From assembly GCA_017649745.1 (NCBI GenBank), contig JAGCGE010000137.1:1-16019 (forward strand): a stretch of DNA of 16,019 nucleotides. The letters run 5' to 3'. A model generated the notes under the pieces. The model was given only the letters and a program-made list of their open reading frames with translations, ran no database searches and was not told the DNA's origin. This stretch comes from Clostridiales bacterium (lineage in GTDB: Bacteria > Bacillota_A > Clostridia > Saccharofermentanales > Saccharofermentanaceae). Positions 2,046 through 11,931 of the stretch are shown here, one piece after another; the first letter of the stretch is position 1, and every line of letters begins with the position of its first letter. Position numbers and translations under genes: made by a program.

Positions 2046-2276
2046 AATCCAACCCTTAGATTAATTCTCAAAATTCTGATTTTGGATTTCCAACCCTATG
2101 CTTGAAGGTATTTAAAGAGAATCAAGGAGAACACGTCGATTATCCCTTCTGATCCCGTTTTTTCATATACTCTGATACTTATGGTTGCATATTTATAAAG
2201 ACTTGTCCTTTGTTACTAACATAGGGTTGGATTTATAAAAATGAGATTATTTATTTGAAGCATAGAGTTGGAAAAA
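2046..2276. repeat. Repeat structure 1: two inverted pairs of GGTTGGA motifs spaced 41 bp
   Basis: The 429 bp between 1949 and 2379 contain no gene that I can support; this structure fills the middle. The left arm has minus-strand motifs at 2046-2054 (AATCCAACC) and 2087-2095 (TTTCCAACC), start-to-start 41 bp. The right arm has plus-strand motifs at 2225-2233 (GGTTGGATT) and 2266-2274 (AGTTGGAAA), again 41 bp apart. The inner motifs form a perfect 12-bp inverted repeat (TCCAACCCTATG at 2089-2100, CATAGGGTTGGA at 2220-2231) separated by 119 bp. Spacers are AT-rich and only loosely alike. Structure 2, about 9.65 kb away, repeats this layout. Its nature (protein-binding array, RNA, MITE-like element) is not shown by the sequence. 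Confidence 0.75.
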
Positions 2277-9771: not shown

Positions 9772-10541
9772 TAAACGATTCAAAAACAGTAAAAAATCAG
9801 TATTCGTCAGCAGACAATCTTAAGACAAGGATCTCGATCCATGACAAATATTCCACCAACAAGATGGGTTTTGGAAACTGGATCTATTCGAACTACAAGA
9901 TAGGAACCGGTATGAAAGTTCTGGAGTTAGGCTGCGGAACAGGTGATATGTGGCTCGGTCACGAGTCGATCATCAAGTCCTGTTCGGAGCTTGTTATCTC
10001 TGATTTTTCGGAAGCTATGGTGGATATGGCAAAAACAAAGATCGGCCAATACGATAACACTAAGTACATGACTATAGATGTTCAGGATATTCCGTATGAG
10101 GATGGTCACTTTGATGTAGTGATCGCCAACATGATGCTCTACCATGTTCCGGATCTGAATAAAGGCCTGTCAGAGATCAGAAGAGTCCTCAAAGATGGCG
10201 GCACTTTCTACTGCGCTACTTACGGCGAGCACGGCATCATCGAATACCTTTCTAAGCTGCTGTCAGTCTATGGAGTTGAAGATACCACAAACAAGAACTT
10301 TACGCTCCAAAACGGCGCTGAGATACTGGGTAATGTCTTTAAGAAGGTTGAACGACTCGATTATAAAGATTCTCTTGAGGTAACTGTGATCGAAGACCTC
10401 GTTGACTATATCTATTCGCTCTCAGCTATGACAACATTAAGTGCCGTTCCTCGCGATAAGATAAGTTCAGAGCTGTCATCTCACATGATTAATGGCAGCC
10501 TGACTGTGCCAAAAGAATACGGAATGTTTATAGCTCAGTAA
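9768..10541 (+). CDS. Class I SAM-dependent methyltransferase (Methyltransf_11 type)
   Basis: This 257-residue protein carries SAM motif I at residues 52-59 (LELGCGTG), the acidic loop ISDFSEAMVDMA, motif IV FDVVIANMMLYHVPD, and the post-motif RRVLKDGGTFYCATYG. This is the standard order for small-molecule or sugar/lipid methyltransferases of the UbiE-like group. It is coupled by an ATGA overlap to the acetyltransferase and probably acts on the same or a related substrate; that is inference. Its 3' end overlaps the convergent EEP gene by 14 bp. Confidence 0.9.
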   Translation: MINDSKTVKNQYSSADNLKTRISIHDKYSTNKMGFGNWIYSNYKIGTGMKVLELGCGTGDMWLGHESIIKSCSELVISDFSEAMVDMAKTKIGQYDNTKYMTIDVQDIPYEDGHFDVVIANMMLYHVPDLNKGLSEIRRVLKDGGTFYCATYGEHGIIEYLSKLLSVYGVEDTTNKNFTLQNGAEILGNVFKKVERLDYKDSLEVTVIEDLVDYIYSLSAMTTLSAVPRDKISSELSSHMINGSLTVPKEYGMFIAQ

Positions 10542-11550
10542 TCGTTGTAATAAGTGCTTCGTGATCTGATAGTTCTTTAAGTTTTAAAGATGGATCAAAG
10601 ATTGAAGTTCTTATTAACGAGGTCTGATCATAGAACCTGTTTATAAAAGAATAATCAAGTACATTGACCTGTCCTGTCGGTCTGTTCAGATCGTCCAACA
10701 TCTTGGTGTCTCTGAGCAAAGTATTGAGCTTCTTGATGTTCTCCTCAAAAGGTCCGTCAATAAAAGCATTTAGATCACCAATAAGCCAGAATTTGCTTGC
10801 TTTGTATGAGTAGAACTGTGCCATATCCAAAATGGCTTTCCACATCTTTTCGGCTAATTCGATACGGTCTTGCTTAGAGTTGAAAATCTGCGGTACCCAA
10901 ACATTCATTATTACCTGATCATCAAGCTCCACAAGGTTATATCTGTGCCTGAAACTGTAATCGTCCTTAAGTGATATGATCCTTTTGTATTCTGCGTTTT
11001 TCTCTTTGAGGATAATGCAGATGCAATTGTTGTAATCTTCTTTTTCTCTGTATGATTTCGGAAGTATCGTGTCATAGAAGTTGCCAAGTTCTCTCAACAA
11101 AGCCTTAAGGAACATCCGATTCTCTCCAACTCTGAACTCCTGCAACATAATAACTTCAGGAAGGACCTTCTTGATCTCTTCCGCAATTCCTTTGAGCCTT
11201 CTGATAAAGTCTCCCGCTGTTGCCCTGTATCCCTGCACATTAAGACTCATGACAACTTTCTCCTTAGCTCCCTTGTACAAGCGCAAAAGCGCACATACAA
11301 GCATGGAGTAGGATACAAAGATCCCGTACGTGCTCCTAATGTTTCTTTTGAGTTCTCTAAGGTACTCAAGGTTTTCGATATCAAGCTTCACTCCAACCTT
11401 TTTCCCGAAGTTTACACTCTTGTCCTTTATGAGTCGTGGCCAGAATTTCTTCAAAATGCCGCGGTCATTTCTGACAGCCTTCAAAAGTCTGTTTACTGTA
11501 AGCGGTGTACACATATTCTTAGCTGAAAATCTGATGCTGACGGTTACCAT
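10528..11550 (-). CDS. APE-like endonuclease/exonuclease/phosphatase with RHH-like N-terminus
   Basis: The start at 11550 is fixed by AAAGGAGG five bases upstream; a longer frame to 11661 lacks such a site. The 340-residue product has two parts. Residues about 51-93 show a strand-helix-helix pattern (VGVKLD, then LEYLRELKR, then VSYSMLVCALLRLY) resembling ribbon-helix-helix DNA-binding domains. From about residue 98 an EEP domain follows: SLNVQGY (Asn104), metal-binding Glu138 (LQEF), VWVPQ in the position of the APE1-type VPN, GDLNAF (Asp259, Asn261), LDYSF (Asp299) and SDH (Asp329-His330). All catalytic positions are present, so it should be active on nucleic acid or another phosphodiester/phosphomonoester. 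Repeat structure 2 lies upstream. The RHH assignment is by eye and tentative. Confidence 0.8.
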   Translation of the reverse strand: MVTVSIRFSAKNMCTPLTVNRLLKAVRNDRGILKKFWPRLIKDKSVNFGKKVGVKLDIENLEYLRELKRNIRSTYGIFVSYSMLVCALLRLYKGAKEKVVMSLNVQGYRATAGDFIRRLKGIAEEIKKVLPEVIMLQEFRVGENRMFLKALLRELGNFYDTILPKSYREKEDYNNCICIILKEKNAEYKRIISLKDDYSFRHRYNLVELDDQVIMNVWVPQIFNSKQDRIELAEKMWKAILDMAQFYSYKASKFWLIGDLNAFIDGPFEENIKKLNTLLRDTKMLDDLNRPTGQVNVLDYSFINRFYDQTSLIRTSIFDPSLKLKELSDHEALITTITEL

Positions 11551-11563: not shown

Positions 11564-11661
11564 GAGACATGATAGCAAGCCGGCAACACAAAAAAATCGA
11601 CATAAAATACAAAAACCGACAATTTCGTCGTAAAAGTCTCCAAACACCTGGTACACAGCAC

Positions 11662-11692: not shown

Positions 11693-11931
11693 CTTGTTTC
11701 CAACCTTATACTGCATATTTGAAATTGAGATTTCATAAATCCAACCATTGGCGTCAGAGACAGAAAGAAAAATCCGTTTATTTGAGAAACCCGAATCTTT
11801 TTTATCGCATGAGTCTTACACATATCCAACCCTAAGATCCTTTATGTTGATGATCTTGTGTAGATGTTATCGCGTAAGGTTGGATTTGGTAAAATTAGTT
11901 TTTGTAAAGAATTCATAGGGTTGGAAACAAG
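11693..11931. repeat. Repeat structure 2: two inverted pairs of GGTTGGA motifs spaced 41 bp
   Basis: The gap 11551-12023 has no supported gene and holds this structure. The left arm has minus-strand motifs at 11697-11705 (TTTCCAACC) and 11738-11746 (AATCCAACC), spaced 41 bp. The right arm has plus-strand motifs at 11878-11886 (GGTTGGATT) and 11919-11927 (GGTTGGAAA), also 41 bp. An extra minus-strand copy lies at 11823-11831 (TATCCAACC). The outer ends form a perfect 13-bp inverted repeat (CTTGTTTCCAACC at 11693-11705, GGTTGGAAACAAG at 11919-11931). Inner motifs are followed by ATT and outer ones by AAA. Motif-to-motif span is 231 bp, against 229 bp in structure 1. I see no clear target-site duplication. 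Confidence 0.78.
11834..11857. repeat. 6-bp hairpin inside repeat structure 2
   Basis: AAGATC (11834-11839) and GATCTT (11852-11857) can pair around a 12-nt loop in the centre of structure 2. It is short and could be chance. Confidence 0.3.

Follow-up and report, generated by a model that had tools for sequence, protein, structure and literature searches.

A 16,019-nt stretch of contig JAGCGE010000137.1 from a Clostridiales bacterium of the family Saccharofermentanaceae (assembly GCA_017649745.1; this whole stretch is called the window here) carries two repeat structures, S1 and S2, and, beside S2, a gene for a protein, P0001, with a predicted double ribbon-helix-helix (RHH; TraY-like) domain fused to an ExoIII/TDP2-type nuclease (Table 1). 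A first-pass annotation had described S2 as two left arm copies (TTTCCAACC at 11697 and AATCCAACC at 11738) and two right arm copies (GGTTGGATT at 11878 and GGTTGGAAA at 11919) in inverted orientation, with 41-bp spacing in both arms and a perfect 13-bp inverted repeat at the outer ends, and had noted the same architecture and a near-identical size in S1. All of this holds, and there are two copies more than it listed: S2 has a third copy of its left motif, at 11825, and S1 has a degenerate right copy, reading GGTTGCA, at 2183-2189. S2 lies on a 42-bp lattice, with intact left half-sites (TCCAACC) at positions 0, 1, and 3 and right half-sites (GGTTGGA) at positions 4 and 5, while S1 has left halves at positions 0 and 1 and right halves at positions 3, 4, and 5, those at 3 and 5 with one mismatch each; an extra, off-lattice GGTTGGA stands by S1 at 2008-2014. 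Their near-identical size is explained by both structures filling six positions of one 41- to 42-bp lattice (5 x 42 + 16 = 226 bp). The site in both is a 17-bp pseudo-palindrome, TCCAACC-NNN-GGTTGGA, of which mostly the outer half is kept.

Table 1. Features of the S1 and S2 arrays and of the adjoining nuclease gene (coordinates of the window)
Feature	Position	Strand	Details
S2 six-position array	11697..11927	.	Intact half-sites +11699-11705, +11740-11746, +11825-11831, -11878-11884, -11919-11925
S2 outer inverted repeat, left arm (exact, 13 bp)	11693..11705	+	CTTGTTTCCAACC
S2 outer inverted repeat, right arm (exact, 13 bp)	11919..11931	-	GGTTGGAAACAAG
S1 six-position array, family of S2	2046..2275	.	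Half-sites +2048-2054, +2089-2095, degenerate -2183-2189, -2225-2231, -2266-2272 (one mismatch)
Gene for P0001, 340 aa, predicted double-RHH + EEP nuclease	10528..11550	-	Start at MVTVSIRFSAKN
Direct repeat TTGTCGG...TGTCGAT, step ~20 bp	11597..11623	-	Between S2 and the start codon of the nuclease gene

The signal in the window is one of geometry, not of motif number. Same-strand TCCAAC pairs with a spacing of exactly 41 bp number four, whereas 500 dinucleotide shuffles averaged 0.002 such pairs and never exceeded 1. Loose copies of the motif are unremarkable on their own: TCCAACCYTA with up to two mismatches occurs 28 times versus 21.8 expected, and 19 of 200 shuffles reach 28.

The only family to exceed its cut-off in a Pfam scan of P0001 was PF03372 (26.6 bits, and 31.0 bits for a homolog from genome G088, against a curated cut-off of 24.5), the structural fold is that of Tdp2/ExoIII, and all matches from NCBIfam were of ExoIII type and fell short of the cut-off. 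Asn, Glu, Asp-Asn, and Ser-Asp-His motifs (N104, E138, D259, N261, and S328-D329-H330), which we take to be the catalytic residues of the EEP superfamily, are invariant in 39 sequences, including that of G088. In fold and catalytic residues, the C-terminal domain matches the repair enzymes ExoIII, APE1, and Tdp2 (Exo_endo_phos, PF03372), but, unlike those enzymes, it is joined to a predicted DNA-binding domain and linked with repeat arrays. Residues 1-97 share the secondary-structure order of the RHH folds F TraY and VirC2, with a weak structural score, but no transfer genes appeared among the neighboring genes read (not a full survey). A phmmer search of the same residues against PDB sequences returned a tandem ParM fusion (E 0.0005) and a single ParM (E 0.14), which we judged to be chance matches. 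PADLOC matched none of three members of the protein family, and a protein search of plasmid, phage, and viral-contig collections gave no match.

The first-pass annotation had suggested a dispersed element or a fixed-layout protein-assembly site, an idea now supported by copies of the arrays in the relatives G091, G044, G004, G102, and G100 and by the conservation of their sites relative to the spacers. Judged by a transporter protein of the window (80% identity), its nearest relatives are rumen-type Clostridia (Ruminococcaceae bacterium KHP2 and Saccharofermentans sp. RUI264). Among 80 loci returned with the transporter, one (L006, from Clostridiales RUI293, genome G004) has motif arrays in two clusters, and one other has two scattered matches; S2 DNA used as a query against six near genomes gave short, weak matches only, the best of them in G004. 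A strict array pattern matched 5 of 115 genomes of the family, at 63 places versus 1 for the reversed control, and a looser one matched 6 of 188 genomes of the order, at 67 places versus 4 control matches, one of the six being a single chance-like match in G090. TCCAACC arrays are found in 5 of the 188 genomes, and arrays of either motif in 6, counting the differently built ones of G088. With places grouped by hand, the strict pattern gave 15 arrays in G091, 9 in G044, 4 clusters in G004, and 1 each in G102 and G100, and a second G102 array lies at its protein gene. These counts are lower bounds, since the patterns demand NTA after TCCAACC and miss TAA-centered sites, as at the G102 gene.

Most half-sites of the fetched arrays fall on one lattice, at same-strand distances of 41-43 bp and multiples thereof (206 of the 256 same-strand pairs within 130 bp, counted by hand). 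Palindrome partners are 16 apart and the next units 25 further; one core type is off the lattice, with steps of 53 and 79-80 bp. The half-sites also have a polarity, left halves prevailing left of the array center and right halves right of it (85:41 versus 40:82, P 7e-8). Beside the nuclease gene, a common core layout (+41/42, +84/85, +59, -41/42, -) recurs in the window, G044, and G004, and in reverse in G091, despite spacers that are barely alike at these arrays; G102 has a different layout at its gene.

Homologs of P0001 were found in 5 of the 188 genomes (E <= 0.001), with one match per genome, and in a class-wide sample in 1 of 391 genomes at E <= 1e-15, namely G004. Four of the five homologs in the order are 57-100% identical to the query, which came from G091, and their genomes make up all but one of the five that carry TCCAACC arrays (P 1e-7). 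In all four, the gene is immediately preceded by an array on its upstream side, as it is in the window, a link between array and gene that the first-pass annotation had not made. The fifth homolog genome, G088, encodes a protein that is 31% identical, and upstream of its gene stands a 42-bp repeat of a different motif, GTAACC. Another array of the same contig has GTAACCCTAAGGGTTAC in 42-bp steps, left halves first and then right halves. The GTAACC pattern has 36 matches in G088, spread over four contigs (the 63-kb contig that carries the nuclease gene has 21), and 1 or 2 matches in each of 31 other genomes, with none in the rest; its reversed control gave single matches in many genomes and none in G088. 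Searches of G088 for a TTCAC palindrome tracked a spacer sub-motif, but led to the array at L159. The half-sites are TCCAACC or, in G088, GTAACCC, with AT-rich flanks. A diverged protein is accompanied in G088 by a diverged motif, with lattice, palindrome length, and polarity unchanged, and we take this joint divergence, seen at the level of sequence, as the strongest evidence that the protein would read the arrays. Two side observations concern G102 and G100: the nuclease homolog of G102 (L144) has an in-frame TAA, and few arrays were seen in that genome by the patterns used; G100, in which the 188-genome search found no homolog, has one short array at a locus common with G102.

The inverted half-sites, read as RNA, fold favorably (z -3.8 for S2 and -3.3 for S1), as a structured RNA or a transcribed hairpin would, yet this low folding energy arises because the motif itself is inverted. 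The first-pass annotation had set RNA structure against DNA-site conservation, and the comparison came out for the latter. Across seven pairs of orthologous arrays from G091 and G044, 5 of 343 site letters are substituted, compared to 345 of 1,823 spacer letters (P 1e-21; 12 of 371 versus 348 of 1,879 with G044 as reference). Spacers have few gaps (19 of 1,842; 55 of 1,934 the other way) and diverge beyond the flanks, at 18.9% versus 11.4%; the flank gap rates in this comparison (18%) include slice-end effects and are excluded from the evidence. Conservation of the site letters and not of the spacers is as expected for DNA sites. Among four orthologs, no covariation was found between paired motif columns, which hardly vary, and the sole compensatory cells sit in a 2-bp hairpin. 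A known RNA family was the other explanation that the first-pass annotation had allowed for, and no Rfam family fits: neither Rfam at gathering score nor a tRNA search found anything over the window, Rfam had no match around S2 up to E = 1, and its only match in 12 array loci was a tRNA (L110, 5515-5587) that lies apart from the array. As the arrays also occur in all orientations relative to genes, we consider an RNA highly improbable.

The arrays are intergenic whatever the orientation of the adjoining genes, and they crowd around the nuclease gene, least clearly in G004. Operator arrays, through which the protein or another regulator would control neighboring genes as a regulon, seemed attractive from the TCCAACC genomes, where none of 28 arrays with both neighbors lies between convergent genes (9 are divergent and 19 co-directional, with G091 and G044 orthologs counted apart and four further arrays without a right neighbor dropped), and where a -10-like TGCTATAAT was seen by eye immediately past the end of the G004 array that adjoins the EamA-like gene. 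This promoter hypothesis failed on G088, in which three of seven array gaps are convergent, and on the background gap count: counted on nine contigs or stretches, the gaps that hold arrays (9 co-directional, 7 divergent, and 3 convergent) do not differ in orientation from other gaps of at least 150 bp (11, 8, and 3, respectively). The open reading frames in these counts are mechanical picks, not annotation, and the two counts differ in places, for example at the right neighbor of the G091 C2 array. Given further that the neighboring genes read share no common theme (ten were scanned with Pfam) and that the arrays crowd around one gene, we regard an operator function as unlikely.

Array positions are well kept between G091 and G044: 4 of 4 are common in a 22.7-kb aligned stretch, with one core versus two at one position. 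Three of the four G004 clusters adjoin genes whose relatives flank G091 arrays (the nuclease, an EamA-like transporter, and a 115-aa protein). On the 63-kb gene contig of G088, arrays recur at intervals of ~7-13 kb across 48 kb, whatever the gene orientation. Kept positions, kept sites, and this spacing would suit chromosome-organizing or segregation sites, like parS or matS, marking out a single region of the chromosome, and in ParB-parS systems repeated palindromic sites likewise cluster around the gene of the cognate protein. A core function of this kind would be expected more widely than in 6 of 188 genomes including G088, however, and the protein has a nuclease fold, not that of ParB or MatP, with no ParB domain found by Pfam in five members of the array-linked family. 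The sites are in phased arrays, their distribution is patchy, and by eye the gene neighbors differ between G088, G091, G004, and the window. We think a chromosome-site role quite unlikely.

There are also signs that arrays are copied and altered. Non-orthologous arrays are 70-79% identical, some pairs up to the array edge (the orthologous pair G044_C7c/G091_C54c was left out of these counts), and G088 arrays at different places are 89-96% alike in part, reaching 96% over 82 bp, with one match ending close to an array edge. The G088 array at C6 48091-48511 (L174) consists of ~3.5 repeats of a 126-bp unit of three lattice steps, close copies of which stand at the ends of contigs C44 and C75. At the array locus common to G102 and G100, the left flanks are 98% identical and the arrays have seven and two positions, respectively. 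Copies this similar could be ordinary miniature transposable elements, moved by an unrelated transposase and next to the nuclease gene by chance, but the gene adjoins an array in the four TCCAACC homolog genomes, the window, and G088, motif and protein diverge together, and no target duplications were seen by eye in the array flanks inspected, leaving this explanation improbable. A search of two G091 loci in G044 and G004 found no array-free orthologous gap. Stable position, conserved sites, fast-changing spacers, and occasional copying are as expected of a resident array in use, one that may at times be repaired or copied by a nuclease sitting on it.

The reading that we favor, with a probability of roughly 0.7, is that S2 and S1 are arrays of DNA sites on which one dedicated nuclease, encoded beside S2, assembles; we infer its binding, cutting, and copying from sequence comparisons. 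Each site would be bound by the double-RHH domain, which, like F TraY, would amount to a complete RHH dimer within a single chain. At four helical turns per step, all copies would sit on one face of the DNA, and the polarity of the half-sites would set two protein trains facing each other; F TraY is reported to be a single-chain RHH dimer and to occupy DNA as a train (PMC12117103). Held in place above the array, the nuclease domain might then nick or trim DNA, and repair from sister arrays would yield array copies in nearby intergenic places and altered unit numbers. Sites would be retained because assembly serves some useful or self-maintaining role.

Rigidly spaced site arrays together with a nuclease point to what appears to be an undescribed protein-plus-repeat system. 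We are aware of no known kind of system in which an EEP nuclease goes with phased arrays of its own site. Open-licence full texts held no description of the EEP and RHH combination (searched by family name, which may miss papers), and none among the matches listed for Saccharofermentans repeats or for phased half-sites. As regards a CRISPR array, the sites here are degenerate and inverted within one array, and the ten neighboring genes scanned with Pfam are not cas genes (this was not a full cas search).

The nearest organization is that of REPIN/RAYT, in which, as reported, a single-copy nuclease gene has its own palindromes alongside and dispersed copies elsewhere, and different proteins go with different repeats (PMC3116915). 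In the S1/S2 system, too, the nuclease gene is single-copy, and arrays stand both next to it and at other places. Its protein, in contrast, belongs to the EEP nucleases, has a predicted double-RHH domain, and is no Y1 HUH enzyme; its sites form 42-bp lattice arrays, of which few were found, crowding around the gene; and these sites, TCCAACC or GTAACCC, are without the GTAG or CGTC tags given for REPs (PMC3733652). Lacking both the Y1 HUH enzyme and the REP tags, the S1/S2 system is not a member of REPIN/RAYT. More tentatively, and with somewhat less than even confidence, we envisage a self-maintaining repeat system in which a TraY-like-guided relative of ExoIII/TDP2 assembles on its own 42-bp arrays and cuts, repair copies the arrays into neighboring gaps, and protein and site evolve together as lock and key; the REPIN/RAYT lifestyle would then have been invented independently, using unrelated chemistry. 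If true, nucleases that live with dispersed palindromes would have a second example, unrelated in its chemistry to the first; its two natural motif versions (TCCAACC and GTAACC) would allow specificity, assembly, and cutting to be tested together, and it raises the question of why a repair-type nuclease is tied to rigid chromosomal arrays.

The direct repeat between S2 and the nuclease gene, which we take to resemble a Spo0A box, is a likely candidate for a control site of another regulator. A similar repeat precedes the homologous gene in G091, G044, and G088 and, less clearly, in G004 and G102, and TTGTCGN...TGTCGAT also occurs, again between array and start codon, at L145 1356-1387.

A DNA search of a plasmid collection returned six Enterococcus records with 33 bases matched, which were of no use, and the array pattern matched two IMG/VR viral contigs (L135 and L136) once each, possibly by chance. 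Between G091 C54 (L139/L140, 16211-22716) and G044 C7 (L137/L138), one stretch is 98.7-98.9% identical, compared to 90.6-92.4% in neighboring parts, and is apparently a recent exchange; the idea of recombination at the nearby arrays was set aside, as no breakpoint lies at an array on the inner side of the tract. Beside one array common to both genomes, G091 has a short-chain dehydrogenase-like gene (L116 10837-11553) and G044 a large surface-protein-like gene (L123 3184-5433; both named by eye), a difference that is a gene replacement ending near an array.
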